DNA of 64,000 nucleotides from a virus, in IMG/VR virus record IMGVR_UViG_3300042526_000097, positions 25,419-89,418 of that record. One strand, 5' to 3'. Under the pieces are notes generated by a model. That model searched no databases. It saw only the letters and a list, made by a program, of their open reading frames with translations, and was not told the DNA's origin. The first letter of the stretch is position 1, and the number at the start of each line of letters is the position of its first letter. Shown piece by piece: positions 17,049 through 61,517 of the stretch. The position numbers were made by a program, and so were the translations under genes.

Positions 17049-20000
17049 ATGAGTTGTTATACTTCCCCTATTACTGGCCAACCTTCTGTGTTGGCTCAGT
17101 TGCTTGACACTAACTACGGTCCAATGAAAAGAGACCGTATTATGTCTTACATATACTCTGACCAGTTCCTTAAAGAACATGGAGACTTCAGAAGTCCTAT
17201 TACCAAGATACCATTAGACAGTATAGGGAAAGAGCCTAGCTTTGAGTGGGTACAGTCTTTGATAATAAACAAGCAAGACAGAACTACAGGTCTAAATGAA
17301 TTAAGTCAAAACCTTTTGGGCTTTCTAGATAAGTTAAATGTATCTACAGAGTTTAGAAGTGAATTACAAAGTGTCTCTGGATATAATGCTGCTTCATTAA
17401 CAGACTTACTGTACAAAACTGTACTAGTAAGAAATGATTATAAGAACCCAGGTTTAGTTAAAGAAACAGCTTATGTAGCCTATTCTTTTTTAGGTAAGAA
17501 GAACAAGATTAGAACTGATCTTATTAACAGTATTGAAAACTTTAAAAACTATCCAGAGCTATACCAAAAATATAAAGCAGCTAATGGCAGGTTATCAGAC
17601 TATAAAATAAAAGAACTTATTGTAATTGACTACTTAGCTGATGCAATACAAAATGATTTTAAACATCCTAAGGACAGTTACATAAATAGAGAAGCTGAGT
17701 ACTGGCAGTTAAAGTCTGATTCTAAAATAGGTAGAGCTTTAGAGATATTACTTATAAAGTTTAAAAACTTCATTACAAACTTATTCAATGTAAAGTTATC
17801 TGAACAAGAGTTAGATGCCCTAGTATCAGACTTAGCCCATGACATACTTACTAAAAACTTTCGAAAGTTTGGTAGTGAGTTATCAGCAAAAGACCAGTTA
17901 ACTAACTATGAAGACACAGTAGCAAAAGACCCAGTTGCAGGTAATATTATAGATAAGTTTACTGATAAATTAAAACTAGTACTTACTGGGAGTTTATCGG
18001 CCAGATCACAAGGAACTTTCTACAGAAGCACAGAAGAAAACTTACATGACCTAGATTTTACGTACCAAGGAGGTAATGACCCTCAAGTATCTAAGTTCAT
18101 ACTAGATGTATACAGGAAATCTTCCTTAATGCCTTATGCAGATCGGCCTGCTTTCTTAAAGAAAAAGAGTACAGAACTTTTAAAAAGATTTCAAAACCAC
18201 CCAGTTCTTTTAGGCATTAAACAAGAATTCCCAGATTTTAAGATAGAGAATGCCTTTATGAATAAGTCTGATAGGTTTACTATTTCAGGTAGCATTGGAG
18301 AGCATGTTATAGATTTATTCTTTACACTTGATACTGATGTAGATTCTCATACACCTATGTTTCAAGACTGGGAAGCTACCTTTATTCAAAAGATAATAAT
18401 GGGTAGACGTAAAGACATTAAAGACTTTGCCAACTTTATACCTTTCTTTACAACTCAAGGAAAAATAGCTCAAACAAAAGGATTTAGACACTTTACATTT
18501 AAACCTATACTTAATAACCTAGAAGAATTAAGTCCTGAGATAGAAGAACAACTGCCTAGTGCAGAAGTTACCTTTGAGATGTTGAACCCTCAACAAAAAC
18601 AGGCTTATAACAACACTATTAACTTCTTAAGCTCTCCTGAACAGTTACGTACTTTGTCAGGGTATGCAGGTACTGGTAAAACAACTCTTACTAAATTCAT
18701 TGTAGCAGATTTAAAAAGAAAAGGCATAAACTTTAAACTAGCTTCACCTACTCATAGGGCTAAAGAAGTATTACAGTCAAGTACAAATGAACCTGCTATG
18801 ACTGTAGCAAAGTTACTAGGATTAGGACCTGCTACAGAATTAGAAGACTTTAACTTGGTAGATAAGATATTTCAACCTGCTAGACCTGATGCAATGCCTT
18901 CAGGTGGTATAGTTATTATTGATGAAGCAAGTATGATCAATGATGACCTATTTGACTATCTTACTTCTTTAGCTGCTAGAAAGGGTTCTAAGATATTATT
19001 CATAGGAGATGATGCCCAGTTAAAGCCGGTTAAACAGAGAACTATATCTAAAGTATTTTCAGTTGAAGGCCAAGATAAGTTAACTGAAGTGATGAGAACA
19101 TCTAATGGTAATCCCATGCCTTCTGTAGTTCTTCAACCTATTAGAGATAATCAGAATTCTACTAGGGATATGTTTCCTCACACTACAATGTTAAGTCCTT
19201 TTGGTGAGGGTATTGAATTTACAAAAGATGTTGATAGCTTTTTAGAAAAGTTAAGTGTTAGTGTAAAGGAAATGGTAAATTCGGGTAACCTTATGGCAGT
19301 TAGAGCTGCAGCCTATACCAATAAAGAAGTGGCTAACCTTAATAGCTACATCAGAGCAAAGATGTTTGGATTTGGTGCACCCAAGTTTGTAGAAGGTGAA
19401 CTGATGATGATGTATGAGAATAGATTTTTTAGTGGGGGAGATTGGGTATTACCTAATGGGATGGACTTACTAGTTAGTAAAGTTAGCAGAATAGAAAATA
19501 AAAAGATTAAAAACCCTATTACTAATGAGTATATTATTCTATCTGGTTTTGAGTTAGATCTTCAAGGTGCTAAAGAAAAAGAGTTTAGAGAAACTGTATT
19601 TGTACCAGACACTGTACCAAAAGAGTATTTAATTGCTTTAAATGAACTTAAAGATAGAGCTATAAAAGCTTACAGTGCTGCAGATCGAGCAGCAGCTTGG
19701 AAGGATTTCTTTTCATTTGATGAGAAAGTATTTAGTATAAACCCATACTACTTGTATAATGATAACGTACTAGCCTCTCCTGATGATTTTATTAATTTAC
19801 TTAGACAAAACAACCCATCTCTAAGTTCTAAAGAAATTGAAAAGATATTAAATCAACATAAGTTCAAAGACAGAACTTTTAACTATGGCTATGCTTTTAC
19901 TATCCATAAAAGTCAGGGAGGTACTTATGATGAAGTGTTTGTAAATGAAGATGACGTAGATATTGCTAGTTCTTTTACTAACCCTGACTGGCAGATGATT

Positions 20001-23000
20001 AACAGTCTTAAGTATGTAGGATTCTCTAGGTCATCTAAAAAGACTACAGTACTTTCTAAAAAAACTGATAACACTAATGCTGTTATACCAGAGACAATCT
20101 ATGAAAAGCCTACTGCTCCCCCTCCACCACCTCCACCTCCTTTAAGTAATCTTACTGAAGATGAAATAGAACAACAATACCAAGAACTAGAAGATGAGTT
20201 AGACTTAAGTGACTACCCTCTAGTATCTTACCTTAAAGAAGATTATGAGGATGACAGTGTATCTCTTTTAGAAAATACTAAATATTGGATCTCAGAACTT
20301 GAAAAGTTTAATAGTTTAAAATCACAAATTACTGAAGCTTTACAAGCAGGAGACAACGAGACAGCTCTTAATCTTAAGAAGTCTTTAGATAGTCTTACTA
20401 ATACTGGTGAGTTTAACTATATAACTAGTTGGTATGAGCCTGACAGGGAACAGTTTAGAAAGAGTTCTGACTACATACAAGAAAAAGTAGATGTAGTTAA
20501 GGGTGACTTGGAATACCTTAAAGAAAGGTTAGAAGATGAAAGACAAAACTTAGTAAACTCTTTAACTGCTAGACAAACTGATACTGAACTTGGAGTCTAT
20601 GAAGAGTTTGGAACATACTACAAGTTCAACACATCTCCTAGTGGTGTTATAACAGGAGAGTACAAACAGGGTAAAGATGGGGAGTGGAAACCTTTAAACA
20701 ATAAGACTGCCCAAGACAAGCATGAAAGATTTGTAAGTCCTCCTCAAGCTCCTGTTCAACTTCAGCAACAGACTCTACCACCACCACCCCCACCTCCTTC
20801 AGTTCAAACAACAGAACAAATATATTCTCAATTAGGAGATAAAACAAAATCTAAAGAAGCTCCAAATGTAATTCTTCCTGAAGATTTAGGTTTAAAATTT
20901 GATGGGTCACATAAATCTAACATGTGGACTGTACTTTCTCCAAACTTTAAAAAACAATACCCAAATGGAGTAATTGCATATAGAGGAAAAGTAGACAGTT
21001 CAGCAATTGGTAATCCTTTTTCTGTAACAAATAGAGGAGAAGATACTGTAAAACAATTTATAGAGTGGATTATAACAGGTAACAATTTTGGAGTTGAAAC
21101 CATACTAATGGGAGGTAAAAATTACAAGTTATCTGACCTTAGAAATGAGTACATTAATATAATTAAAAAAGCTAAAGGAGAAAAAATATTATATTATAAA
21201 GAGTTGGGGAGACCTTCTCATGCTACAGCTTTAGATTACTTAATTAACAGGTATAATTGGAATCAACCAACTGCTCAACAAACTTCCCTACCTCCAGTTT
21301 CTTCTACACCTGCTATTGCAAATAAAGCTACTACTCAACCATCTACTAGTGTTGAAGTAATTCCTCTAAATGAATCACAAAGATTTACTAGAGAATCAGC
21401 TGACACAGATAGCGAGTATATGTATTTATTTACAGATAATGCTGGTAGAACATCAGGCTCAGGAGTTATTGACCCTAACGGTTGGTATGCTAAAAAATAT
21501 GGTGCAGATAAAAAATATGCAAGTAAAACACAAGCTGTAGCAAGAGGTCTTAATAATGTTTATCCTATTACTACAATGGTAGATGATAAAAGAACTCAAT
21601 GGACAGATGCTCAATTTGATACCTATAAAAAAATCATTGATGATGAGATAGCAACTATTAAAGAAGCATCTAAAAATTATAAAGGAATTAAGTTTGGTGC
21701 AGAAATGCCTTTTGGTAAAGGTGCAATTTCTAATATGAAAGATAGTGCTCCTAAAATATGGAATTATCTTAATACAAAACTTGCTGAAATAGGTATTGAT
21801 AATACAGGAGATATGCCTATACCTACTCAACAATCTGCTAATCCTACTCAGCCTTCTGGTAACACAGCTAGTCCTGTAACTATAGAGCCTTTAATCTTAC
21901 CAGACAGTTTAACTGTAACTAAAAGATCAGAAGTAACCCAGGCTAATATAGACTCTATGAAGTCTACATTAAAGTTAGCCTTTGTAATGAAGGCTGCAGA
22001 GAATCCTACTCAACAGTTTAAAGTTCCTTGGCAGAACCCTTCTGCTAATAAGACTGTAGACAACTATGGATTCAATCAGTCAGACTATGCAAGGATAATG
22101 GATGAGATTCGTATGGAGATGGGGGATAGATTTCCTAGTAACCTTATATTCTTTCCTGCCTTTGAGTTTGCTATGAATAATAACCCTGAGAGGTTAATGA
22201 AAGTCTATGCAGATAGGATAAAAGAATTTACAGCAGGTAGGTCAGCTCTACGTCTCAATGACTTAGAGATGGCTAAGATGACTTCTAAGATGGAGATATC
22301 TATAACTACACCTGATGGTACTGTTGTAGATTACTTTACAAAGAGGCATGGCAGTGGAGCTCAAGAGGCTGTAGGTTCTCTAATGCTTACTGCATTTCTA
22401 GACTTATACAATAAAGCCAATGGAAGAGTATCAGCTCCTCACTTAATTGGTCAAATACTATTAATGGCTAAAGGCCACTCTAATATTGCAGGGCCTAACC
22501 AATCTGTGTGGACAGATATTGTCTCAAGCTTTACATTCAAAGGAGATGATCCTAAGTTGGGTTTACTTGACTTACTCTTTGAGAACCTAGCTCATCTAGG
22601 ATACCGTATAGACTACAACAGCAAAGTAGCCTTAAAGGACTACTTCTCTGAGAAAAAGAATGACCCGGGCTTTATGCAATCAAACTTTGATAAGACTCTT
22701 AACTTAGAAGACAGTAAAGACTGGGAAAGAGATTACAATGACTATCTAGAAGATACCATAGACCTTATTGAGGTGGATGATATGAAAGCTAAGACCTTAA
22801 GAGATTGGCAGGATAGTGCATTTGAAAGAAGTAGTAAAGACCAAGCAACTGCTAGGCTTAAACTATTTGTAGCTAATCAGAAGTTGATGGAAAGCTTTAG
22901 TGTTGGTGCAGTTAAATATGACCCTACTGATACTACTGCCATAGACTTGACAGATTCTATTAAGACTGTAGATACTATGACTCTAGCACAGGCTAGACAG

Positions 23001-26000
23001 ATCAATGGTAAAAAAGTAATGCATAAGCAGTTCAGCCCTGAATACCTTGAGAAGACTATACTTGCCAAGTTTCCAAGAATACCACAGAAGGGTCTCTTTG
23101 GATTCCCTAGCATTGTTCCGTTTGATACCTTGTATGAGAATACACAAGGAGTACTGTCTTCAATTCCAGGACTAGAATCAAACATCAGTAAAGCAGTAGA
23201 ACTACTAAGAGCTGAAGAAGATCCTAACCTTACAGAACTAGCAGACAGATTAGAGAAGGCTGATGGAAGAACTCAAAGAGAATTCATTAAGGTAATGAAC
23301 ATGCAGTACAATGAGTTCTATGTAGTCAATATCAATAGAAGAACTAATAACGGTAACAACTACTCAGAGTCTAGAGTCTTTGGAGCACAAAGATATTCCC
23401 AAGACCAGATGATTGTAGAGAGATGGAAACAGTCTCAAGTCTTAGCTCCTATCATTAAGATAAGACCTAACGGTGAAAGAGTAATAGATGTAGACAGAGC
23501 TAGAGTGCATGCAGAAGTTATAAAGATCCTAAGTAAGTTAGATAGAGTAGATGAACTTACTGATGAGAATGTAATACCTTATGCTATGATGTTAGCTCAA
23601 GAGGTAAACAAGTCCCCAGAACTTCAACAGTTCTTTGAAGGTATCAATTTAGTAGAGTTAGTAAATGAAGAGAGGGTACGTACTAGATTACCTAAAGAAG
23701 CACAAAGGCTACAACAGAAATCTCTTATAGCAAAGATGTTTGCTGAGCATGGTATAGACCTAAACAGTAAAGTGCTAGATGACTTAGCAGCCTACTACTA
23801 TAAAGATGGTAGAAGAATGGATGCAGTCTCTAATAGTCTTAAGAATACTAAGATGAGATCTTCTTGGATAGGACAGTTCTCTGAAACAGAAAGTACTGGT
23901 AAACCAAATGGTATCTTCTCTGCTTTCTTCTATGCAGCTGCAGGGATGTCTAACAGTAATGACATTGACTCTGAAGTAACAGAAGACCTTGAAAATTCAG
24001 TAATACAAAACAATCCACTCTATACTGAATCTACTACCACTAAGATCCTTGCCAAGTTTGCACGTAAGCATGTAGACAAGTTGTTCAATGCAGTTCATAC
24101 AAACTTAGAGGGTAAACAGATATGGGATTACTCCCTACCTACTTCTTTGAGTAGAGCAGTACTGGACCTAACTACTAATCATAACAACTACACTGAGAAG
24201 TTAAAAGCAAGTGTATGGGGTAATAATCACTACTTAAAGGAGTCAAGACTATCTAACTTAAAGCTAGGATACTTTGAAGGTCTTAAGGTTGATAACTCTC
24301 AGACTGGTACTATACGTCAAAGAATGTCTGATAGACAACAGCTATTGTCCTCTATTCTTCTCTACCAAAACCAGGGTAGAGACAGTGCCTTTATGGTATC
24401 ACTTACCCATTCAGATAAAACAACTACACCTGTATTCTCTGGTATACCTAAAGTAAATGTAGTCTCTGATGAAGGTGGTATATCAAAAGATGTTATAGAA
24501 GCTTTCTATACAATCTTTGAAGGAGAGTGGCAACGTATACTTCAAGTACAGAAGTTAAAGAAAGATCAAGGTACTACAGGTTCAAAGTCTATGGATACTA
24601 GTGGTCAACACTTCTTGTTACTTCCTAGTTTAAACTTTGAGAGTTTATCTGATGCTGAGAAGTTAGTTCTATTTGATGAAGATGGAAATGTAAAAAGCTT
24701 TTTAGATGAAGCAGGAGTTGAGTTCATAAAGAGTAAGATAGGAAATTACTTGAATGTAATCTTTGATGATGCTAAAGCATACTGGGAATCCAATGGAATT
24801 ACTAATGAACTCTTAGACAGTACTTATCTAACTAAGGCTTATAAAACCTTACAAGGTACTGCAGCCCAAAAAGCTGAGATGGCATTAGATACTGCAATAG
24901 CTGATTATGTTTTCAACTCTACACTTTGGAACATGTCTTCAGCTATAATGTTGATGGGTGATCCAGCCAATGCTGCTTGGAAAGGTAATGTTGAAAAGAC
25001 TATGGCTGAGTACACTAAACGTCTTGCTAAGGATATTGCACCTAGACAGCAGTTAATGTTTGAAAGACAAAGCTACTCTCAATTGACTGTAGCTGATGTG
25101 GAGATGAAGTATGAGTATGCAACTAAGTTTGGTAGTAATGTACAGAAGTCAGTAGCTACAGATGCCCAAGAGTTAACAACTGTAAGAGAGCACTTAGATG
25201 TGATGAGAGCAGCTGGTAAGGTATCAGATGATATGTACAAGACTCTTATAGCTAAGGTTAACAAGTTTGATACTAAAGAAGAAGAAGACTTTACACCTGA
25301 AGAGTTGACAGCAATGTTAGAAGATGGTAGTGGTCCTATGCAACCTAACAAACCAATATATGCTGGAGTAAGGTTTAAGAATGGACTAGTGCTCTATGAC
25401 TATATTAAAAGTTCATCTGTACCTTTATTTCCTCAATTCACTAAGAACTCTGAGCTAGATAAGGTAAGGTTACTTATGGAAGGTAAAGTACCAGGGTTAG
25501 ACAGGTTTAGTAGATTAGTATTTGAATCAGGTAGTAAAAATGGTAACTCTAATGACCCTTTAAAACTCTTCAGTGCTGATGGATCTTTCTTAGAACCTAC
25601 TCCTGAAAAGCTTATGTCTAATACCCGTATGCTTGATAGAGCTAACTTTGGTATACAACAAGAGGTTCCATTTGATATGAACAAGGATGAGGTCAATGTA
25701 ATTACTCAGATGGATAAACTTATTGTAGAGGGCATCTTAGGTATGGGTAACTTTACAATTGGTAATCAACTTGGGGTGTCAGGTTCACAGGTAAGAGCTA
25801 TGAAGGAAGATACTCGTATCAAAGCTGCTAGAATTAAACTTAAAAAACTCTATGAGAAGTTAGGTGTAGCTGACAACACTAAGACTATCCCTGCTAGCAA
25901 AGTAATCAAGATGCTTATAGAGGCTGCAAGAGAGAGTGAGTTCTCTCCTAATGACATAGCCTTACTTGAGGATACTTTAAAGATTACTAATGATGACAAT

Positions 26001-29000
26001 GCTGTAGAAGTATCAACCTACCCACTATTCTTTCACTCAGCTGTAGAAAGGTTTGAGAAGTTAATACTAGCTAAGGTCAAGTCTATCACAGAGTTTAAGA
26101 TGCCTGGTAAGTCTTATGTACAGGTATCTAGTATAGGATTAATACGTCAAGACAACCTATCTGATAAAGCTAGATTAGGTGTTATAACTGTAGGTGACTT
26201 TGACATGAGTAAACCTTTACGTCACATGCAGATTGATGAGACTACGGGAGAAGTAATCCCTGCACAAGTTATCATGCCATTCAACTTTATGATTGATGGC
26301 AAGAAAGCAGACATAAGAGATTACATAGTAGATGGTAAAATAGACTTAGATAGAATACCTAGAGAGTTACTACAGTTAGTAGGGGCCCGTATTCCAAACC
26401 AAGGTCACAACTCTATGATGGCTATAGAGATAGTAGGGTTTACACCAGACTGGATGGGGGATGCAATAATTGTACCTTCAGCTATTACAGGACAGATGGG
26501 GTCTGACTTTGACGTGGATAAGTTATTTACTTACCAAAGACCTTACATGCACAACAGTGCTACAGGTAAGTTTGAAACATACCAAGAGACTGGTACTAAC
26601 ATAGGCTCTTCTCCAGAAGAGTTTGACGAGTTAGAGAACTTAGCCAATAAGAGAATGGAAGCCTTAGGATACAAGAAGAATGATGATGGTAGTTTCCCTA
26701 GAAGAGAAGTACGTAGAACTGTAGAGACTATAGCTAAAGAAAGGTATGGTGATGAAGTACCTACACACCCTATAGAAAGAGGAGAAAAAACCTTAGAGGA
26801 ATTACAACAAGACTATTTCAATATACACTGGGGAGTTCTTACACATCCTGAGATGTACACTAAGGTTATGAAAGCTTTAGATAAAGGAGATTTAGGATTT
26901 GATAAAGGAGCAGCTAACAACTTGTTTGAACGTAAGTCAGAAGGACCTAATATGTTTTTCTCACCTATATCTCAATTGAAAACTTTTCAATCAGGTAAGG
27001 ATGCAAAGGACCTTGTAGGTATGACATCATTGTCTTCTACTTTTGATTCTAATCTACAGAATAGAAGCTTAAGACTAGGTACTTATGTAAAAGATACTAA
27101 GTCAGGTGAAGTTTCTGAAGTAGAAGATTCAGTCTTATTAGATGGTATTGATCTTACTACAATCTCAGGTGAGGCATTGTCTCAAGGGTATGAATCTAAG
27201 TTCAACCCTGATGGTACTCCAGACTTTAGTACTTGGTATTCTAAACATGATAATATTACCATAGACCAGTCAGGTGCAGTAGATAATGCCAAAGATAGAA
27301 GGTTAGATAACCTCAACATTACTATGGCTACTTACCCAGCTTTTGATGCTATGAATAAACTTCATGGTGAAACCAAAGATGGTAATAGATCTGTAAGTAA
27401 GTTGTTCCAATGTGCCCTTTCCAACCAAGATATACTAGTAGAGTATACTAGAGAGTACAGAAAAGGTAATGATAGTCTAAGTGAAGAAGAGGAATACAGT
27501 GTAGACTTAAGAAGTACTATAGTTAAGTCTTTAAAAGAAAAGTATAAGAAGCTTTATAAAGAATTAACAGGAAAAGATGCTACTTGGGATGATACAAATG
27601 CAGTTAACCTAGACATGAAAACTCTAACAAAAGCATTTAAAGAATCTCAAAAAGGTGAGGCACTTAGTCCTGAGTACTACTTAACACAGCTTAAAGTTTT
27701 AAGTACTTTTGATTATCTATCTTCTATAGGAGAAAGACTTAGAGAGTTACAGAAGACTCTTAACCAAGATACCAATGGTGCCGGTCCTAACCTACTTTAT
27801 GTTTTACAACAACTAGATAACTTTGACAACTTATACAAACAGAACTCTACTAAACTGTTTTTAAATGAAGACAGTCTTATAAGTGGACAGATGAAAGAGT
27901 TGTTTGATATGACTGTCCCTGTAGCTAAGGACCTTTTAAGTTCTGTCTTTCCTGTAGAAGCTATTAAAAATGTAGTAGGTACAGTAGCATCTTACCAAGG
28001 TAAATCAATGAGTCAGTTATCTTTAAAGACTCAGAAAGATATAGTAAGACAGATGAGATCTTTCACTGTTTCAAGTTCTCCAGCTCTTGCTGTAGACACT
28101 ACAACAGAAAGGGCTAGACTCTTGTACGGTACGGATACAGTAGACTCTTTAGCTAAACGTGTTGAGAGAGCTAAGATGCTTAATCCTGATAACACTTTCC
28201 TCAAAAGATTAGACACTAAGATAAACACTGTAGGTAGAGGCCCTGACTTTGTTTCTACTATAATACAACGTAGCGGTAGAATGACTGACAATGCAGTTAT
28301 ACAAGACTTTGCAAGATTGTTACAATCAAATGACCAGTTCTTAAGAGAGCTAGGAGAAGACTTAGTAAACTATGCTTTAACACTTACACCTCAAGCTAGT
28401 TCTACTTCTATTGTAAGTAAGATACCTGCAGGGGTAATACTTGGTACAGACATAGCATCTCAGTTACGTTTTGAGGACACTGTACTTAAAGCTATGGGTA
28501 ACATGCCTAAAGGATACATTGACCAATTACATCAACACAGTCCTTCTCTAGCTACCAAAGTAAGTAAGAAGATTATAAAGAAAGGTCTTTCTCAGTATGA
28601 GGTAGATGGTAGAGAATATCCTGAGGTACTAGCCTTACAAGTTAAACACTTAACAGCAATAGAGAAGATTCAACTTAGAACCTTTAAGCCTACTCCTATT
28701 GAAGAGAAGTTTGCACCATACTTAAGGTTCTATAGTAAAGAAGAAGGTAAAACTATACTTTATAAACTAGTGTCAGAAGGAAACTTCTTAACCTACCAAC
28801 GTATAGATACCTTAGGTAAGAAAGGGGTAGTAGAATACAACTCAAGTGTTCAAGGGCCAGTACGTTCTTTGTTCCCAGAAAATAGAGCAGCCTTTGACTA
28901 TAAGTCAGAAGAGGTATTAAGGTCTCTAGAAGTTGCTACTGAAGATTTGATTAACAAGACTAGTGATCCAAACAATGCTTACAGTAGATGGGGTATTACA

Positions 29001-32000
29001 GATGGAGGACAGGATGTTCTTACTAGAGGACTAGAGCAACTATCAGCTGATAGCAGTGTACCTACTTACTTAAGAACTTTATCACAAGCCTTAGCAGAAA
29101 CAGCTGAGAGAACTTCAGACTTAGAAGCTAGAATGTCAATGGACTACGCACTGAACCCTTTGACAGTTAAAACTACTACAAGTGGGGGTAGAGGCAGTTA
29201 TAATGCTGGAAGTAATACTCTATCTTTACGTTTAAATGCTGATGTAAAGAAATCTGCAGTAGTCCTACTACATGAGACTCTACATCAGAGATCTAGTGCA
29301 CTGCTTCATGCATTAGGTTGGGTATCTAGAGAAAGGTTGAAGATACAGAATAGTGGTATGTCTGAAGAGACATTTGAAAAACTGTGGCAAGAGTATCAGA
29401 CTAAGTCGTTAGAGTTTGCTAAAAAGAACCCTGAGGTTTATGAGAAAGTAAAGGAGTTAGACAGATTACGTTTACAAGCATTTGAACAGTTAAAGGCTCA
29501 GCTAATATCTCAAGGTATTGACATGGATGCTAAGATGCAGGACATCTTTAGAGACAAAATAGATGGTAGTAAGGAAGACAAGTTACTCTACAGTCTATCT
29601 AGTATGTCTGAGTTCATAGCTCATAACCTTACTGACTCAGACATGATGGAGTTTCTCAACACTGTAGAGTCTACAACTGAAAGTTCTTTTATTGACAGGT
29701 TAATAGACAGCTTCCTTAACTTCTTCTCAGAGATGATTAATGCTCTAGGAATAAACTACAATGATAAGAGTATACTAAAAGAATGTCTAGCACTGACTTA
29801 TGACATCACCGGCTTGAATAATACAGAAAGACTACAAGGTATAAATGAAAACTTTGCACCTCAATCAGTCTTTGCAGACACTGAGTCAATGGCCAATCAT
29901 CTACAGAATACTATAGAAAATGTATACAATCAGAATGTAGTTAGAACAGATAATCATCTAGGACATCTGTTGAACATAGAAGAGAAGTTACCTAGCACTC
30001 CATTTACAGGAGGAACTGAATTCTTTAATGAGACTATTAATAAACTCTCAAGACAACTCCAACAGTTAGACAATACTATGGCACGTCCAGTAGTAACTGA
30101 TGAAGACCGTAAGCGTAGAAACCAGGCTTTGTTAATATACAATGAAGCTAAAGAGGACTATGATAAACTGTCTACTTCTAAGGATGAGATGCAGATGATG
30201 GATACTGCTACAAGACAACTAGAGTGGGTTAAATCTGTAGTATCTAAACCTTCTATTCACTTACAAGAAGTTACAATAGCTTGGTCTATACTAGATACTT
30301 GGGGTAGTATGTCTGATATCTACACTACTAACTATATACCAGGTGATGTAGTTAAAGAGACTCTACAGAATGTAGAAGGTCTTGCTACTATACTCTCTAA
30401 GCAAATGCTTAAGCAAAGTATGTTCAGTGTAATTACAGCAGGAGAAAGACAAACAAATATTAAGTTAACTCCTGAAGACTTAGGTCTTAACTTAAAAGAG
30501 TTAGGGTGGCTAGAGAAAGAGGTTATAGCTTTAGAAAGAGATATGAACAAGGCTAGTCAGATGTTGACTACGTTTGCTCAGTATCAAGTACAGAATGCCC
30601 AATCACAGTTTAGGGATTTAACTAATACACTTAAAGAGTTTAAGAAACTAGTTGATCCATCTGACTATAGTAAGTTCATACAAGAGAATGAAGAAGGAAG
30701 TGTCTTTGGTCTTGTACAAGAGTTACATCCTAACTGGTTTAAGAAGACAGCTGGTGCCAGGTATCAACTTAAGAGTTGGTTAGAGGGTATGTTTGGATTA
30801 GACATGAAAGATCCTCTTCAAAGAGCTAGAAGATTAGATGGTGCAAAGGCAGCATACAATGCTTTCTGGAAAGACATGTTAGCAACTGGGGAAGTAGTAA
30901 GAATAGATAAACTACTAGACCTTGCAACAGGAGACCTTAGAACAGATCCTGAAGCTTTAGCAGAGATAGCTAGACTTAAAGCTGCTTCTAGAGAGAATCT
31001 AGTAGATGATATCATAGCTAAGTCTCAAGCAGACTATAAGAAGTACCTAGGTCTTAAGGCAGCAAAGGAAGAAGAGATTGATAACAGTGAAAAGACAGCT
31101 GACTTTAACCTTACGCCTGCTGAAGAGATAGCCTATATGGCAATGTCCCCTGCAGACCAACTGACCTTTAAGCTTAGTACTATCTTAAGACTTACTGTAG
31201 CTATGAAGGAACAAAAGAAAAGAGAGTGGGAATACTTTAACTCTCCTGTCAACTTCCTTAATACTATGCCTCAAGCAAGTGTATCTATTGATGAGAATCT
31301 CTACTTACAAAATGGTAGATTCAAACCTTGGTTTGTACCTAAGAACATACCTGAGAACTTTGATAAGAAGTATGACATCATCAACAATAATGCTAACCTT
31401 AAGAAAGGGTATGACATACTCAAAAACTTATCAGAACAGTTTAGGTCTTATTTACCACCTACAATAGCAGAGAACTTACATGAGAACTTCTTACCTATTA
31501 TCAGTCCTGAGATGATGGCAGAAGCTAGTGGGACACTAAGCAGACTTAAACAAACAGGTGTAGGTAGATCAATGCTTAACTCTATTTCAAGCTCTAGGAC
31601 AGAGACTATGAAAAGAGATGAGGGTGGTATTCCTATCTCTTATGTTAGTGAGGCCCCAAGAGTTATAGATTCAAGAGGTAAAAGAACTAAGAAGATAGAC
31701 ATGTCTAAAGTAAGTACTGACTTACCTAGAATGTTTGAGATGTTTGGTGAGATGGCTATACATTACAATGCTATGTACCCGGTTGGGGAGATCATGGATG
31801 TAGCTAAGAGGTTAGTTATGGAAGAGAACAAGAACCGTGCAGCTAGAGGAGATAAAGGCCTTCCTAATCTAGTTAACTTAATGAAGTTCTATCAAGATGC
31901 TGTAGTCTATAGAAAGTCTAAGCAACTAGAGGGTGTAGATACTACTCCTGTATATAGCCTTAACCCTATGAAGCACTATGCTAGAAAAGCAGAGATGGCT

Positions 32001-33512
32001 GGTCTAGTAACTGAGTTAGGTAAAGTGAATGAAGAGATAATCCTTAAACGTGTAGATGCAGACTCAGATCCTAACAACCCTTTATTTCAAAGAAGGAAGG
32101 AACTAGAGGAACGTATCAAGCTTATACAAGGAGAAGCTAGGTATGTTACAGCCTCTAAAGTGGGTGATACTATGATTAACTTCCAACAGTTAAAGAGTAT
32201 GTCATACAACCCATTCTCAGCAGTATCTAACCTTACCTTTGGGTATGTTGCTACATACATACATGCAAGGGGATTCAGAGCTGATAAGGATGGCTTCACT
32301 ACTGGGGACTATACAAGACAGCAATTGCAACAGGCTTACAATATGATGAAAGGTAACATAGCCAACTCATGGTTAAAGGCCTTTGGGTATTCTCACTCTG
32401 ACCTATCTAGAAAGATATCAGCACTCATCACAAGAGCTAATGCTATTGAGGCCTTAATAGATACTAGGTTTGGTGGTTCTAATCTTACAGAAAATGCTAG
32501 CAATTTAAAGAAGTTCTTAGATCCTACAGCTGCTCAGAAGTCTGGTGACTGGTTAACTAAAGGAGCAGTCATTGTAGCTCGAGCCCTTAATACACCTGTA
32601 CAAGTTACAGTTAATGGAGAAGTTAAAACTATCAATTTGTTTGAAGCTTTGAATATAGAAGGAGAATGGGATGCAGACAAGTATGGTGAGAACAAAGAGT
32701 GGAGTTCTAAGAATCCTTCAGAGCAAGTAGGTTGGAATAAGTATCTCTTTAGAACTAGAAAGGTGATGTTATTAATATTTGGTAACCAAGATAAGAACAT
32801 ACCTCTAAGTGCTAGAAGTTCTATATGGGGTAGGTTGCTTGGACAGTTCAGGTTATCTTGGATTCCAGAAGGTATCAAGACTAGATGGGGAGCTAACCAA
32901 GGGTATGATGAAATACTAGAAAGAGAGTTAGAGGGTAGATACAGAACTATGCTACGTATGCCTGGCTTTGGTTTACCTTTAATACTCAAGCAGATGGCTA
33001 GTGTAGTTACAGGTCAAGATGCCTTTGAAGGAACTAAAGTTACTTACACTGAGGGTGGTATAGAAAAGACTAGAGATATCAAAGACTTTGAAAAGGAGAA
33101 CATGAGAAGGAATATGGCTGGTATGGCCTACACTGCTCTGTTTGCTTCAATGTACTATCTACTCAAGGCTGCAATACCTGATGAAGAAGAACTTAGAAAG
33201 TTAAGAAGACAAGGTAAGAACCCTGCTACATCCTCTAGGATAGCTGCTAACATTGCCTATAGAAGCTTTCAGGATCTTATACTGTATGCAAGTCCTGATA
33301 TGTTTGAACAGATTACAGGTAATGTAGTTCCTGCATGGTCAGTAGTTTCAGACTTTAAGAAGGCTCTTGCTGCTTGGCATAGAATAGCTTTTGATGACAA
33401 GTATGAATGGGAAGACTTACTTCTTAAACAGACTAAAGCATTTCCATTTACTAACCTGGCTAACAAGTGGGAATTCTACTCTTCACATGATATAAGTGCT
33501 GCAGTAAGATAA
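17049..33512 (+). CDS. Giant virion RNA polymerase polyprotein with SF1 helicase and zincin motif
   Basis: A single 5487-residue open frame. In order: residues ~311-337 a nucleotidyltransferase-like LTGSLSARSQGTFYR...HDLDF pattern; ~509-1010 an SF1 helicase; Pro runs at ~1021 and ~1240; ~1277-1404 a DUF4326-like domain; ~1444-1590 a second small domain; the RNA polymerase core with RIPNQGHNSM at 3114-3123 and GSDFDVDKLF with Asp3153, 3155 and 3157; and a zincin HETLH at 4075-4079. crAss-like phages carry a single-chain-type polymerase related to phi14:2 gp66 and eukaryotic RNA-silencing polymerases, packaged in the virion to transcribe early genes. In relatives I recall these regions spread over several genes; here they are one chain. 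The C-terminal ~1300 residues are helical, unassigned, and resemble other crAss cargo proteins. Polymerase assignment rests on the catalytic loop and flanking block. Confidence 0.75.
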   Translation: MSCYTSPITGQPSVLAQLLDTNYGPMKRDRIMSYIYSDQFLKEHGDFRSPITKIPLDSIGKEPSFEWVQSLIINKQDRTTGLNELSQNLLGFLDKLNVSTEFRSELQSVSGYNAASLTDLLYKTVLVRNDYKNPGLVKETAYVAYSFLGKKNKIRTDLINSIENFKNYPELYQKYKAANGRLSDYKIKELIVIDYLADAIQNDFKHPKDSYINREAEYWQLKSDSKIGRALEILLIKFKNFITNLFNVKLSEQELDALVSDLAHDILTKNFRKFGSELSAKDQLTNYEDTVAKDPVAGNIIDKFTDKLKLVLTGSLSARSQGTFYRSTEENLHDLDFTYQGGNDPQVSKFILDVYRKSSLMPYADRPAFLKKKSTELLKRFQNHPVLLGIKQEFPDFKIENAFMNKSDRFTISGSIGEHVIDLFFTLDTDVDSHTPMFQDWEATFIQKIIMGRRKDIKDFANFIPFFTTQGKIAQTKGFRHFTFKPILNNLEELSPEIEEQLPSAEVTFEMLNPQQKQAYNNTINFLSSPEQLRTLSGYAGTGKTTLTKFIVADLKRKGINFKLASPTHRAKEVLQSSTNEPAMTVAKLLGLGPATELEDFNLVDKIFQPARPDAMPSGGIVIIDEASMINDDLFDYLTSLAARKGSKILFIGDDAQLKPVKQRTISKVFSVEGQDKLTEVMRTSNGNPMPSVVLQPIRDNQNSTRDMFPHTTMLSPFGEGIEFTKDVDSFLEKLSVSVKEMVNSGNLMAVRAAAYTNKEVANLNSYIRAKMFGFGAPKFVEGELMMMYENRFFSGGDWVLPNGMDLLVSKVSRIENKKIKNPITNEYIILSGFELDLQGAKEKEFRETVFVPDTVPKEYLIALNELKDRAIKAYSAADRAAAWKDFFSFDEKVFSINPYYLYNDNVLASPDDFINLLRQNNPSLSSKEIEKILNQHKFKDRTFNYGYAFTIHKSQGGTYDEVFVNEDDVDIASSFTNPDWQMINSLKYVGFSRSSKKTTVLSKKTDNTNAVIPETIYEKPTAPPPPPPPPLSNLTEDEIEQQYQELEDELDLSDYPLVSYLKEDYEDDSVSLLENTKYWISELEKFNSLKSQITEALQAGDNETALNLKKSLDSLTNTGEFNYITSWYEPDREQFRKSSDYIQEKVDVVKGDLEYLKERLEDERQNLVNSLTARQTDTELGVYEEFGTYYKFNTSPSGVITGEYKQGKDGEWKPLNNKTAQDKHERFVSPPQAPVQLQQQTLPPPPPPPSVQTTEQIYSQLGDKTKSKEAPNVILPEDLGLKFDGSHKSNMWTVLSPNFKKQYPNGVIAYRGKVDSSAIGNPFSVTNRGEDTVKQFIEWIITGNNFGVETILMGGKNYKLSDLRNEYINIIKKAKGEKILYYKELGRPSHATALDYLINRYNWNQPTAQQTSLPPVSSTPAIANKATTQPSTSVEVIPLNESQRFTRESADTDSEYMYLFTDNAGRTSGSGVIDPNGWYAKKYGADKKYASKTQAVARGLNNVYPITTMVDDKRTQWTDAQFDTYKKIIDDEIATIKEASKNYKGIKFGAEMPFGKGAISNMKDSAPKIWNYLNTKLAEIGIDNTGDMPIPTQQSANPTQPSGNTASPVTIEPLILPDSLTVTKRSEVTQANIDSMKSTLKLAFVMKAAENPTQQFKVPWQNPSANKTVDNYGFNQSDYARIMDEIRMEMGDRFPSNLIFFPAFEFAMNNNPERLMKVYADRIKEFTAGRSALRLNDLEMAKMTSKMEISITTPDGTVVDYFTKRHGSGAQEAVGSLMLTAFLDLYNKANGRVSAPHLIGQILLMAKGHSNIAGPNQSVWTDIVSSFTFKGDDPKLGLLDLLFENLAHLGYRIDYNSKVALKDYFSEKKNDPGFMQSNFDKTLNLEDSKDWERDYNDYLEDTIDLIEVDDMKAKTLRDWQDSAFERSSKDQATARLKLFVANQKLMESFSVGAVKYDPTDTTAIDLTDSIKTVDTMTLAQARQINGKKVMHKQFSPEYLEKTILAKFPRIPQKGLFGFPSIVPFDTLYENTQGVLSSIPGLESNISKAVELLRAEEDPNLTELADRLEKADGRTQREFIKVMNMQYNEFYVVNINRRTNNGNNYSESRVFGAQRYSQDQMIVERWKQSQVLAPIIKIRPNGERVIDVDRARVHAEVIKILSKLDRVDELTDENVIPYAMMLAQEVNKSPELQQFFEGINLVELVNEERVRTRLPKEAQRLQQKSLIAKMFAEHGIDLNSKVLDDLAAYYYKDGRRMDAVSNSLKNTKMRSSWIGQFSETESTGKPNGIFSAFFYAAAGMSNSNDIDSEVTEDLENSVIQNNPLYTESTTTKILAKFARKHVDKLFNAVHTNLEGKQIWDYSLPTSLSRAVLDLTTNHNNYTEKLKASVWGNNHYLKESRLSNLKLGYFEGLKVDNSQTGTIRQRMSDRQQLLSSILLYQNQGRDSAFMVSLTHSDKTTTPVFSGIPKVNVVSDEGGISKDVIEAFYTIFEGEWQRILQVQKLKKDQGTTGSKSMDTSGQHFLLLPSLNFESLSDAEKLVLFDEDGNVKSFLDEAGVEFIKSKIGNYLNVIFDDAKAYWESNGITNELLDSTYLTKAYKTLQGTAAQKAEMALDTAIADYVFNSTLWNMSSAIMLMGDPANAAWKGNVEKTMAEYTKRLAKDIAPRQQLMFERQSYSQLTVADVEMKYEYATKFGSNVQKSVATDAQELTTVREHLDVMRAAGKVSDDMYKTLIAKVNKFDTKEEEDFTPEELTAMLEDGSGPMQPNKPIYAGVRFKNGLVLYDYIKSSSVPLFPQFTKNSELDKVRLLMEGKVPGLDRFSRLVFESGSKNGNSNDPLKLFSADGSFLEPTPEKLMSNTRMLDRANFGIQQEVPFDMNKDEVNVITQMDKLIVEGILGMGNFTIGNQLGVSGSQVRAMKEDTRIKAARIKLKKLYEKLGVADNTKTIPASKVIKMLIEAARESEFSPNDIALLEDTLKITNDDNAVEVSTYPLFFHSAVERFEKLILAKVKSITEFKMPGKSYVQVSSIGLIRQDNLSDKARLGVITVGDFDMSKPLRHMQIDETTGEVIPAQVIMPFNFMIDGKKADIRDYIVDGKIDLDRIPRELLQLVGARIPNQGHNSMMAIEIVGFTPDWMGDAIIVPSAITGQMGSDFDVDKLFTYQRPYMHNSATGKFETYQETGTNIGSSPEEFDELENLANKRMEALGYKKNDDGSFPRREVRRTVETIAKERYGDEVPTHPIERGEKTLEELQQDYFNIHWGVLTHPEMYTKVMKALDKGDLGFDKGAANNLFERKSEGPNMFFSPISQLKTFQSGKDAKDLVGMTSLSSTFDSNLQNRSLRLGTYVKDTKSGEVSEVEDSVLLDGIDLTTISGEALSQGYESKFNPDGTPDFSTWYSKHDNITIDQSGAVDNAKDRRLDNLNITMATYPAFDAMNKLHGETKDGNRSVSKLFQCALSNQDILVEYTREYRKGNDSLSEEEEYSVDLRSTIVKSLKEKYKKLYKELTGKDATWDDTNAVNLDMKTLTKAFKESQKGEALSPEYYLTQLKVLSTFDYLSSIGERLRELQKTLNQDTNGAGPNLLYVLQQLDNFDNLYKQNSTKLFLNEDSLISGQMKELFDMTVPVAKDLLSSVFPVEAIKNVVGTVASYQGKSMSQLSLKTQKDIVRQMRSFTVSSSPALAVDTTTERARLLYGTDTVDSLAKRVERAKMLNPDNTFLKRLDTKINTVGRGPDFVSTIIQRSGRMTDNAVIQDFARLLQSNDQFLRELGEDLVNYALTLTPQASSTSIVSKIPAGVILGTDIASQLRFEDTVLKAMGNMPKGYIDQLHQHSPSLATKVSKKIIKKGLSQYEVDGREYPEVLALQVKHLTAIEKIQLRTFKPTPIEEKFAPYLRFYSKEEGKTILYKLVSEGNFLTYQRIDTLGKKGVVEYNSSVQGPVRSLFPENRAAFDYKSEEVLRSLEVATEDLINKTSDPNNAYSRWGITDGGQDVLTRGLEQLSADSSVPTYLRTLSQALAETAERTSDLEARMSMDYALNPLTVKTTTSGGRGSYNAGSNTLSLRLNADVKKSAVVLLHETLHQRSSALLHALGWVSRERLKIQNSGMSEETFEKLWQEYQTKSLEFAKKNPEVYEKVKELDRLRLQAFEQLKAQLISQGIDMDAKMQDIFRDKIDGSKEDKLLYSLSSMSEFIAHNLTDSDMMEFLNTVESTTESSFIDRLIDSFLNFFSEMINALGINYNDKSILKECLALTYDITGLNNTERLQGINENFAPQSVFADTESMANHLQNTIENVYNQNVVRTDNHLGHLLNIEEKLPSTPFTGGTEFFNETINKLSRQLQQLDNTMARPVVTDEDRKRRNQALLIYNEAKEDYDKLSTSKDEMQMMDTATRQLEWVKSVVSKPSIHLQEVTIAWSILDTWGSMSDIYTTNYIPGDVVKETLQNVEGLATILSKQMLKQSMFSVITAGERQTNIKLTPEDLGLNLKELGWLEKEVIALERDMNKASQMLTTFAQYQVQNAQSQFRDLTNTLKEFKKLVDPSDYSKFIQENEEGSVFGLVQELHPNWFKKTAGARYQLKSWLEGMFGLDMKDPLQRARRLDGAKAAYNAFWKDMLATGEVVRIDKLLDLATGDLRTDPEALAEIARLKAASRENLVDDIIAKSQADYKKYLGLKAAKEEEIDNSEKTADFNLTPAEEIAYMAMSPADQLTFKLSTILRLTVAMKEQKKREWEYFNSPVNFLNTMPQASVSIDENLYLQNGRFKPWFVPKNIPENFDKKYDIINNNANLKKGYDILKNLSEQFRSYLPPTIAENLHENFLPIISPEMMAEASGTLSRLKQTGVGRSMLNSISSSRTETMKRDEGGIPISYVSEAPRVIDSRGKRTKKIDMSKVSTDLPRMFEMFGEMAIHYNAMYPVGEIMDVAKRLVMEENKNRAARGDKGLPNLVNLMKFYQDAVVYRKSKQLEGVDTTPVYSLNPMKHYARKAEMAGLVTELGKVNEEIILKRVDADSDPNNPLFQRRKELEERIKLIQGEARYVTASKVGDTMINFQQLKSMSYNPFSAVSNLTFGYVATYIHARGFRADKDGFTTGDYTRQQLQQAYNMMKGNIANSWLKAFGYSHSDLSRKISALITRANAIEALIDTRFGGSNLTENASNLKKFLDPTAAQKSGDWLTKGAVIVARALNTPVQVTVNGEVKTINLFEALNIEGEWDADKYGENKEWSSKNPSEQVGWNKYLFRTRKVMLLIFGNQDKNIPLSARSSIWGRLLGQFRLSWIPEGIKTRWGANQGYDEILERELEGRYRTMLRMPGFGLPLILKQMASVVTGQDAFEGTKVTYTEGGIEKTRDIKDFEKENMRRNMAGMAYTALFASMYYLLKAAIPDEEELRKLRRQGKNPATSSRIAANIAYRSFQDLILYASPDMFEQITGNVVPAWSVVSDFKKALAAWHRIAFDDKYEWEDLLLKQTKAFPFTNLANKWEFYSSHDISAAVR
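18576..20080 (+). other. SF1 (RecD/Dda-like) helicase domain inside the giant protein
   Basis: Residues ~509-1010 of the 5487-aa protein. Visible motifs: LNPQQKQAY Q-motif, Walker A GYAGTGKTT (Gly541-Lys544-Thr545), SPTHRAKEVL motif Ia, Walker B IVIIDEAS (Asp625-Glu626), GDDAQLKPV motif III, and FTIHKSQGGTYDEV (residues 953-957 HKSQG) with YVGFSRSSKK motif VI. All SF1B motifs look intact. The same order occurs in the stand-alone helicase at 50254-51777, so the phage encodes two related SF1 helicases. Confidence 0.85.
20880..21260 (+). other. DUF4326-like inserted domain
   Basis: Residues ~1277-1404 of the giant protein. The pattern IAYRGKVDSSAIGNPFSV, then an acidic/aromatic helix, LRNEYI and a final HATALDYLINRYNW resembles DUF4326, a small domain seen alone in other phages. 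Base composition is more A-rich than in the flanking polymerase and helicase. Its biochemical role is not established to my knowledge. Confidence 0.4.
21380..21820 (+). other. Second inserted accessory domain (phage FTDN...GRTSGSG type)
   Basis: Residues ~1444-1590 of the giant protein. A RFTRESADTDSEYMYLFTDN start, GRTSGSGVIDPNGWYAKKYG, then ASKTQAVARGLNNVYPI and an FGAEMPFGKGAISNMK block. I recognise the pattern from stand-alone Bacteroidetes phage proteins of unknown function. It sits just after the DUF4326-like domain in the same A-rich patch, before the polymerase core. Confidence 0.4.
26380..26535 (+). other. RNA polymerase catalytic loop (DFDVD)
   Basis: Residues 3114-3165 of the giant protein. 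RIPNQGHNSM, then GFTPDWMGDAIIVPS and GSDFDVDKLF. The three aspartates (3153, 3155, 3157) match the DxDxD metal-binding loop of double-psi beta-barrel RNA polymerases; in crAss-like phages the block is typically RIPTQG...GSDFDxDKL. This is the best direct evidence that the giant protein is an RNA polymerase. Confidence 0.8.
29245..29325 (+). other. Zincin metalloprotease motif (HExxH)
   Basis: Codons 29271-29285 encode HETLH (residues 4075-4079) in the context SAVVLLHETLHQRSSALLHA: a hydrophobic strand/helix followed by HExxH and a distal His, as in gluzincin/metzincin-like active sites. This lies ~900 residues after the polymerase loop. A role in cutting the giant chain or degrading host envelope is possible; the sequence does not decide. 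Confidence 0.55.
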
Positions 33513-59197: not shown

Positions 59198-59437
59198 TCA
59201 ACAACCCCCCCAACTCTCTACAACAGCTTTTACTAGTTTCTTTTCTTTGGTGATACCAAAAGTAGAGTTATAGTAGATTCGTATCTGATCAGTTGTGTAG
59301 TGTCTTACTATCCCTCCATCACAATGCACTACGCACCATACATCATTCTCAAGCATACCTGAGTTAGTGACATATATTGCATAGCCATCTTTGTTGCCTT
59401 CGACTACTACAGGGATGGGTTGTTTAAATTCTAGCAT
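59198..59437 (-). CDS. Small hypothetical protein
   Basis: A 79-residue protein with beta-rich pattern (YAIYVTNSGMLENDVWCVVH) ending in SWGGC. Its stop abuts the stop of the convergent Dps-like gene, leaving no room for a terminator. It overlaps the radical SAM gene start by one base. No motif recognised. Confidence 0.45.
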   Translation of the reverse strand: MLEFKQPIPVVVEGNKDGYAIYVTNSGMLENDVWCVVHCDGGIVRHYTTDQIRIYYNSTFGITKEKKLVKAVVESWGGC

Positions 59438-60282
59438 TAGAAGATGTATCTTATGTTTTTAGGGTCAAAGAATTGAGAGTAGAGTTGTGTAAAGACCTTT
59501 ACCATGGAACTTTTTAAGTAAGCTTTATACCTTATATTGTCTGGGGCATACTCAGAATCTTTAAACTCTTGGAACTCTGGTCTTCTACATAAACTGTTTA
59601 CAGCAGGTGAGTTTCTCATCTCTTGTATTATGTTGTATGTTAAGAAGATACATTCACATTTGAGGTCGATACCTCTATTGTGTAGTAGTTCAAATAGTTT
59701 ATGATACTCTTTTAACCACCCTTCTGTGTAGATAATAGGACTGAAGTTTATCTGTACCTCTAGCTGTTCTTGTAGCTTAGGTATGCTGTCTATTCTATCT
59801 ATTATCTTGTCAGTGTTGGGTTCAAGTATGTCAGAGTATATCTGTGGCATAAGGCTTACTCTTATTCTGTTTTTGGTAGGATCTAAATCATAAGTGGGAA
59901 AACGGGTAGGGTATTTAGTAGCAAAGGTAGACTTAAATTTCTCTGAACTGTTAAAGAAATCAAAGACTTTTTGCCATTCGTAGTGCTTAGACATTAGTGG
60001 TACATCAGTACTGCATCCAATGTCTACGGTGTAGTATGTAGGATCTGTCTGATTAGGTATCTTGGGCCAAGGTTTATCTTTTACCCATCTATTTACAGAC
60101 TTAAAGATTAAATCTCTTTCTGTGTATATCTGTACAGTATCAGAATTATACCTTCCAACGTAACAGTAGGATTTCATACAGCCACCTAAACAACCATAGA
60201 TAAAGTTAGGTGAAATACAATCTGCACTCCTACCGTTATCTCTAGTCTTAAAGGTTTTAGTAGACTTATGTAGTACTTTCAT
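59437..60282 (-). CDS. Spore photoproduct lyase-like radical SAM protein
   Basis: A 281-residue protein. Near the N-terminus FIYGCLGGCMKSYCYVGRYN carries three cysteines (31, 35, 40) followed by Tyr, like the iron-sulphur motif of spore photoproduct lyases, but with spacing C-x3-C-x4-C instead of C-x3-C-x2-C. Later STDVPLMSKHYEW and QEQLEVQINFSPIIYTEGW fit the TIM-barrel strands of this family. Phage SPL-like proteins are of unknown substrate; DNA photoproduct repair or base modification are possible. Confidence 0.6.
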   Translation of the reverse strand: MKVLHKSTKTFKTRDNGRSADCISPNFIYGCLGGCMKSYCYVGRYNSDTVQIYTERDLIFKSVNRWVKDKPWPKIPNQTDPTYYTVDIGCSTDVPLMSKHYEWQKVFDFFNSSEKFKSTFATKYPTRFPTYDLDPTKNRIRVSLMPQIYSDILEPNTDKIIDRIDSIPKLQEQLEVQINFSPIIYTEGWLKEYHKLFELLHNRGIDLKCECIFLTYNIIQEMRNSPAVNSLCRRPEFQEFKDSEYAPDNIRYKAYLKSSMVKVFTQLYSQFFDPKNIRYIF

Positions 60283-60745
60283 CAGTAGATTTTACATCCC
60301 TAACCGCTCGAACATAGCCGGTGTAGTTCTCGTCGTAGTTGGACTGAGAGCCACTGGCGAAGTACTGATACCAGGCGAAGCCGTTACCGTCCTCACTAGA
60401 ACTCCAATAGTAGGCAGCGGCAAAACCCCCAATACTTTCTCTATTAACCCACATTAGATGCAATTCTTCTCTTGTAGGTAATCTCCAACCATCTCCCAAA
60501 TCTTCACATACTTTCTTTGCATCTTCCCAATTATGTTTTCCTAAGTCTTTGGGATACACTTCAAACTTTAGATGTTGCTCTAATATAATTGGTTTAGGCT
60601 GACTGTACTTTTTTTCAATGTCATGTTCAATCTTAAGGACTAAATCGTGGATAGATAAGACCGTATCAAGGTCTTTCTCTTTGATGTCATAGCCTACTAT
60701 CGCTGAGGCTATTCTCATGTAGTTGAGTTTTTCTTTGTCTGTCAT
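60266..60745 (-). CDS. DUF1566/C-type-lectin-fold protein with variable-region-like C-terminus
   Basis: A 159-residue protein, started at ATG 60745 (the TTG at 60769 is less likely). The N-terminal ~60 residues are helical. From residue ~80, NWEDAKKVCEDLGDGWRLP then REELHLMW is the DUF1566/formylglycine-enzyme-like fold. The end, YYWSSSEDGNGFAWYQYFAS through YVRAVRDV, has the layout of variable proteins of Bacteroidetes diversity-generating retroelements. In the last ~44 codons of that region 20 end in C, against the A/T-ending habit of this genome. It overlaps the radical SAM gene start by 17 bases. Binding of a ligand or surface is the expected role. Confidence 0.65.
   Translation of the reverse strand: MTDKEKLNYMRIASAIVGYDIKEKDLDTVLSIHDLVLKIEHDIEKKYSQPKPIILEQHLKFEVYPKDLGKHNWEDAKKVCEDLGDGWRLPTREELHLMWVNRESIGGFAAAYYWSSSEDGNGFAWYQYFASGSQSNYDENYTGYVRAVRDVKSTDESTT
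60290..60430 (-). other. Putative DGR variable repeat (VR)
   Basis: A locally GC-rich stretch in an AT-rich genome, dense in NNC codons (GCC, TAC, GAC, GGC, AAC, TTC, ACC), ending in GTTCGAGCGGTTAGG, which looks like an initiation-of-mutagenic-homing end. These are the marks of a VR derived from AAC codons in a template repeat. No reverse transcriptase or template repeat is seen in this window. Confidence 0.5.
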
Positions 60746-60857: not shown

Positions 60858-61517
60858 TTATTTCTTTTTTACTTGATTAAACCATTCATTTACATTTTCT
60901 ACTTCTTTGCCTATTCCCCTTGTAAAAAGAAAATCTACAATAAGTTTTTTAACTTCTTCCTCACTATACATTCTTTCTTGTTGCCATTTAGCACCTAAAA
61001 TAATAGCTTCTTCTTTTGAATGATTTATATTTGAATGATTTGTATATTTAGAGTTCTTTAATGCAAATTCTTCAAGTGTTTCTTGTTTAGCTTCATCTAA
61101 TGGAATACAATCACAATAGATTGTATGACCACAATAACACTTAATCTGCTTAGGCTCTAACGCACCCTTCAATGACATATAGTTTTTGGCTCTTTCTTTA
61201 GCTTCATCTTTTGGAATGATTCTTAATTTATATTCCCAACTTTTATCTAATGGGTAATTCCAATTTTTGTCAACCTCTACACTCTCACAACTTGGATTCT
61301 TAACAAACCATTCTAAGAACTCATTGTCAATAGCTTGTACACCATCTTTGATTAAGTCTTGGTCTGTTGTTAAAATGATTTTTTGACAACCTTTATGTGG
61401 TGTGTATTCTGCCTTGAAAATCATATTACAATCTGGTTTCCAAAAATAATCACCTGCTTTAATTACTTCATCATTAGTGATGTAGATATTGTCATTTATT
61501 TGGTGTATGTTCTTCAT
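60858..61517 (-). CDS. Accessory protein common in Bacteroidetes mobile DNA, unknown function
   Basis: A 219-residue protein. The block DGVQAIDNEFLEWFVKNPSC (residues ~58-77) recurs in many Bacteroidetes phage and prophage proteins that I recognise by style. A CYCGHTIYCDC cluster near residue 127 suggests a metal knuckle, and the C-terminus is helical with WQQERMYSEEEVKKL. Codon use is more A-rich than in its neighbours, indicating recent acquisition. Function unknown. Confidence 0.55.
   Translation of the reverse strand: MKNIHQINDNIYITNDEVIKAGDYFWKPDCNMIFKAEYTPHKGCQKIILTTDQDLIKDGVQAIDNEFLEWFVKNPSCESVEVDKNWNYPLDKSWEYKLRIIPKDEAKERAKNYMSLKGALEPKQIKCYCGHTIYCDCIPLDEAKQETLEEFALKNSKYTNHSNINHSKEEAIILGAKWQQERMYSEEEVKKLIVDFLFTRGIGKEVENVNEWFNQVKKK

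Follow-up and report, generated by a model that had tools for sequence, protein, structure and literature searches.

A family of small phage genes with the variable repeat of diversity-generating retroelement targets, and no reverse transcriptase, that may be diversified in trans

Introduction

Diversity-generating retroelements (DGRs) have been described in Bacteroidota phages, in Hankyphage (PMC6199706) and in crAss-like phages (PMC7290462, PMC12386605), where the diversified protein carries a C-terminal DGR-type variable region, as does the protein described here. The targets in Hankyphage and the crAss-like phages are tail proteins encoded next to the reverse transcriptase (RT), whereas the present target is a small protein of an accessory block that lacks one. 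Variable repeats (VRs) served in trans are documented from single genomes that also contain the RT, as in Thiohalocapsa PB-PSB1 (PMC10907252), and in gut prophages a second VR can lie at a distance from the RT cassette, its neighbours being counter-defence and not tail genes (PMC12629997). In both, as here, the VR lies away from the RT, but those VRs share a genome with their RT, which the present gene would not. DUF1566, with CLec folds, has been reported as the most frequent domain of DGR targets (PMC6642488). By its own account, a large survey of DGRs would not have picked up targets located far from the RT (PMC8144416), and RT-less phage targets are therefore a blind spot. In the literature that we searched, with partial coverage, we found no family of RT-less phage targets sharing its cassette with bacteria.

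Results

The DNA analysed (the window, 64,000 nucleotides) comprises positions 25419-89418 of a linear virus record of 89,418 bases. The terminase of its phage finds its best matches among crAss-like phage terminases (31-32% identity over 96-99%), a Crassvirales-like context, and by the sequence of this protein we place the phage among the crAss-like phages. An ORF of 5487 aa at 17049-33512 has the motif GSDFDVDK and, over about residues 500-1000, a region resembling Dda helicase; it is apparently a crAss-type giant polymerase fusion, which we take to agree with this placement. The accessory block that holds the target gene has a dNMP kinase close by, and the target is about 3.3 kb from the end of the record; the features of the locus are as follows.

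60266..60745, minus strand: very probable DGR target gene, RT-less, ATG at 60745, 159 aa; phage-specific N-terminus (about residues 1-48), then Lcl_C/DUF1566
60299..60424, minus strand: VR cassette, codons 108-149; GC-rich, with constant bases common to other phages and lake Bacteroidota MAGs
60317..60391, minus strand: mutable core, codons 119-143; NNC/NNT codons varying only at positions 1 and 2
60299..60316, minus strand: constant end TATGTTCGAGCGGTTAGG, codons 144-149; IMH-like by position and conservation
59437..60282, minus strand: spore-photoproduct-lyase-like radical-SAM gene (Pfam SPL, E 2.1e-12)
60858..61517, minus strand: upstream gene, beginning MKNIHQINDNIYIT; family also near the target in three of the phages described below (L003, L004 and L094)

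The first-pass annotation of this DNA had proposed a DGR-type target with a lectin fold at 60266-60745, and the exact ORF, its domain match and the signature of its VR bear this out. The protein, which contains YWSSSEDGNGFAWYQYFASGSQSNYDENYTGYVRAVRD, matches Pfam Lcl_C (PF07603) over residues 69-149 (E 4.6e-11, above cut-off). Its scaffold is assigned from this Lcl_C/DUF1566 profile match, our own AlphaFold model (pLDDT 51) being too poor for use or for a structure search. Residues 85-149 have a sequence homologue of solved structure in the C-terminal domain of the Legionella collagen-like protein Lcl (PDB 8q4e, 8qk8; PMC11162425). The Legionella domain is an adhesin that binds glycosaminoglycans, and this homology leaves the ligand of the phage protein unspecified.

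The VR forms the C-terminal ~125 nt of the gene. The richness in NNC codons that had been noticed there is real: of codons 109-149, 20/41 end in C, against 17/108 of the gene's other codons, and the share in five further genes of the window is 13-22%. Codons 109-149 have a GC content of 0.553, a level reached by only 0.13% of 123-nt windows; the window as a whole has 0.367 and the remaining codons of the gene 0.358. Constant codons within the mutable core are CAG, TTC, TGG, GGC and GCC. The GC-rich end likened to an IMH corresponds to the constant codons 144-149, and no hairpin was found 3' of it (z = 0.09).

Eight further phages carry relatives of the target: L003, L004 and L005 came from a protein search, and L012/L014, L018, L034, L059 and L094 were added by DNA patterns, L017 and L024 being rejected as chance pattern matches. 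L012 and L014 represent the same phage, recovered from two samples (contigs of 16.6 and 180 kb) with identical VRs, L018 and L059 are mutually related, and L003 is a related crAss-like phage whose orthologous target lies behind the same upstream gene as in the window. Because most other pairs have little or nothing in common except the target gene, within the stretches compared, their sequences suggest that the gene moves between phages. Small RT-less target genes like this one thus form a family spread over Bacteroidota-type phages that for the most part have no other kinship; annotated phage records added distant relatives only (33-46% identity). The VR differs in every independent member, and all members are open reading frames without stops.

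The neighbourhood of the gene varies among these phages. The radical-SAM gene that had been remarked on as an unusual neighbour is indeed adjacent, with a 17-nt overlap at the end of the target; the gene directly after the target in L003, however, is a different one, and the adjacency is therefore probably incidental and the neighbour unrelated. A family starting MKNIHxxxxNIYIT occurs near the target in several phages (60858-61517 in the window, 6753-7574 in L003, near 3328 and 5357 in L094), a 161-kb phage among them, and may be either a common accessory family or a travelling companion of the target. Among relatives of the dNMP kinase, only that of the L003 contig is close, and the others come without the target gene.

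Several members were found by patterns that fix third bases, so that codon statistics over all members are biased, and we relied on an unbiased set of members consisting of the window, L003, L004, L005 and L059, the last found by its 3' end only. In these five members, found without fixing core bases, mean pairwise difference at codon positions 1, 2 and 3 is.488,.312 and.080 in the 25-codon core, and.127,.082 and.233 in the 51 codons upstream; the distribution of variable sites over codon positions differs between core and upstream codons (Fisher P 1.3e-4). Between the window and L003 alone there are 15, 11 and 1 differences at the three positions in 25 VR codons, and 4, 1 and 7 in 52 upstream codons. 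In the wider set of RT-less members, pattern-selected ones included, the A of CAG was changed in 0/16 such codons. The claim that many codons lie one change from AAC is confirmed, and it is explained by relatives that retain the third base of the codon and differ at the first two. The gene therefore has a VR near its 3' end in which variation is confined to template adenines, as judged against a template predicted from the relatives.

Variation among the relatives predicts this template codon by codon. It would code roughly for YWSSSE-NNNNN-AW-N-Q-N-F-NN-G-N-Q-NNNN-K-NN-x-N-YVRAV, with AAC or AAT at the N positions and CAG, AAG, TTC, TGG and GGC as constant codons, in the order TATTGGAGTTCTAGTGAG, an A-rich core containing TGGAATCAGAACTTCAACAATGGCAATCAG, then TATGTTCGAGCGGTT. 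A pattern search of viral contigs for the core matched 26 contigs, and the predicted core was found beside RTs (RT in 9/10 contigs tested); no template pattern with the constant YWSSSE flank was found in the viral contigs searched. L034, the sole member of the target family among the 26, was rejected as a template, being another RT-less target.

Pairs of template repeat (TR) and VR in the RT-bearing viral contigs show which adenines are mutated in complete DGRs, and 13 pairs in the same codon register could be compared with the RT-less genes. All 26 first- and second-position core sites that were mutated at least 2 times in the 13 complete DGRs also vary in the RT-less genes, against 8/24 other sites (P 1.5e-7). 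CAG is nearly always spared in the cis DGRs (2/38 codons changed), and at AAC-class codons Tyr leads the replacement residues in both the cis DGRs and the RT-less members, as has also been reported for a reconstituted DGR (PMC12875486). The complete DGRs of six viral contigs (L016, L037, L039, L043, L044 and L049) have DUF1566/C-type-lectin-like targets, and the RT-less family shares with them the codon register, the mutable sites, the spared CAG and the template core W-N-Q-N-F-N-N-G-N-Q. In these six, template and RT are no more than about 1-2 kb away from the target, whereas no RT was found in the tested records of the RT-less family and no template in the window's record. The contig L016, a small viral one of 4984 bases, served as a control; its DGR, of another type, is complete and compact, with target, accessory ORF, template and RT.

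The excess of substitutions at NNC codons among relatives, anticipated by the first-pass annotation, is thus strong and falls at sites that complete DGRs mutate, which supports its central claim of a DGR-type target with a mutated VR, template and RT being absent from the window. We hold with high confidence that the gene at 60266-60745 is a DGR target.

The absence of an RT noted for the window extends to the whole 89,418-base record, in which there is no RVT_1 match. RVT_1 was likewise found in none of the records of L003, L004, L005, L012, L014, L018 and L034, and a DGR-RT profile that finds both controls gave no match in the examined stretches of L059, L094 or other members; relatives of 180 kb and 75 kb are among those without an RT. 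An A-tolerant ungapped scan and blastn detected no template-like repeat above background in the window's record, which therefore has neither the nearby template nor the DGR-type RT in the same element that a complete (cis) DGR has. The search for both in the rest of the record, which had been proposed as a check, accordingly found neither. The L003 contig spans the junction where the two ends of the record would meet, again without an RT. Since both the whole record and this contig lack one, it is unlikely that RT and template lie elsewhere in the same phage genome, as had been suggested. No template with the exact constant bases of this VR was found in any of the phage contigs or Bacteroidota genomes searched.

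The cassette of the phages recurs, its constant bases almost unchanged, in MAGs of lake Bacteroidota, where it forms part of large surface-type proteins; both 3'-end types of the phages, GTTCGAGCGGTT and GTGCGTGCAGTT, are represented there. In two such MAGs, G010 and G012, about four or five VR-like cassettes apiece lie within large proteins of surface type, some of which have collagen-like repeats (loci L020, L021, L023, L030, L033, L090 and L092); the L033 copy has an in-frame stop inside the VR. No RT over cut-off was found in G010 or G012, in the knowledge that MAGs can be incomplete, and their cassettes are possibly those of a multi-target DGR whose core escaped binning. In a further MAG, G011, locus L022 comprises a 341-aa ORF with three tandem DUF1566-type repeats and an adjoining single-repeat gene, only some of these repeats being VR-like. 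Three RTs of G011 and G014 were rejected as DGR RTs: one has LPAGAPSSP (retron-like), another QGSPLSP (group-II-intron-like) and the third is a fragment, and none has a DGR motif.

A template of the predicted layout stands next to a DGR-type RT (IGNLTSQ/YVDD-type) in 8/395 Bacteroidota genomes. VR, TR and RT occur together in G478, which was drawn as a relative of G010 and also appeared in the draw from the family of G012, and which is a family-level relative of the cassette-bearing lake MAGs; its DGR target, a large protein of surface type, resembles those of the lake MAGs. The Bacteroidota chromosomal DGRs (L071-L078, and L084/L089 in G478) have the same template layout as predicted here, but the constant bases of their templates are unlike those of this VR, and none is therefore its template.

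Discussion

Our preferred explanation, which we consider rather probable, is that the gene belongs to a travelling family of RT-less targets diversified in trans by a DGR of the host or of a resident element. The VR would have been written by mutagenic retrohoming from a template of the predicted layout; the phage would carry the target only, with a cassette common to large surface proteins of lake Bacteroidota; and the target would be diversified in trans, now or recently, by a DGR that is not part of the phage but belongs to the host chromosome or to some other resident element. The proposition that bare DGR targets in phages use the DGR of the host in trans, so that a single bacterial template diversifies both the phage gene and surface proteins of the host, is plausible, and we advance it tentatively at somewhat less than even chances. 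In favour of diversification in trans are the VR signature, the match to cis DGRs, the predicted template core beside RTs in viral contigs and Bacteroidota genomes, the records without RT, the precedent of VRs served in trans within one genome, the sharing of the cassette with bacteria and the joint presence of VR, TR and RT in G478, whereas the lack of an exactly matching template, the lack of an RT in G010 and G012, the identical VRs of L012 and L014 and a non-significant synonymous test count against it. In that test, the lower divergence of the VR at synonymous sites looked significant with a pattern-selected member in the set (P 0.02), but not in the unbiased members, and we dropped synonymous homogenisation as evidence. 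An active VR should be homogenised at these sites, and the VR may be active at present or may not. That the host supplies the DGR, that the VR is active now and that the product binds a ligand are presumptive.

The main rival, less likely but to which we still give appreciable weight, is that the VR is frozen or fed by recombination, diversified cassettes having been acquired from bacterial or phage DGR targets with no retrohoming in these phages, so that each VR would record DGR activity that took place elsewhere. It accords with the missing RT and template, with a phage whose VR is identical in two samples, with the apparent travel of the gene between phages and with the synonymous test in unbiased members. 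It does not readily account for the window and L003, whose targets are orthologous and in a conserved place and whose VRs differ almost only at A-type sites, nor for a VR that is different in each independent member and always an open frame without stops.

An ordinary cis DGR whose RT and template lie in unassembled sequence of the phage we regard as unlikely. The record is linear, its target is close to one end, and crAss-like phages with complete DGRs exist (PMC7290462, PMC12386605). The L003 contig nevertheless crosses the record-end junction without an RT, the 180-kb and 75-kb relatives have none, and chance loss would be needed in all family members tested. Positive selection on a fast-evolving lectin loop with biased codons, and no DGR at all, is very improbable and was rejected on codon positions: the protein family includes known adhesin domains and selection can drive hypervariable loops, but here the third bases (C/T) are fixed while positions 1 and 2 vary, and the variable sites match the adenines mutated in true DGRs, the same CAG adenines being spared.

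If host DGRs do serve RT-less targets in trans, phages would obtain targeted hypermutation without carrying the machine, and the binding proteins of phage and host would be fed from the same template. With the VR signature and the template predicted here, further cases can be sought directly and hosts identified.
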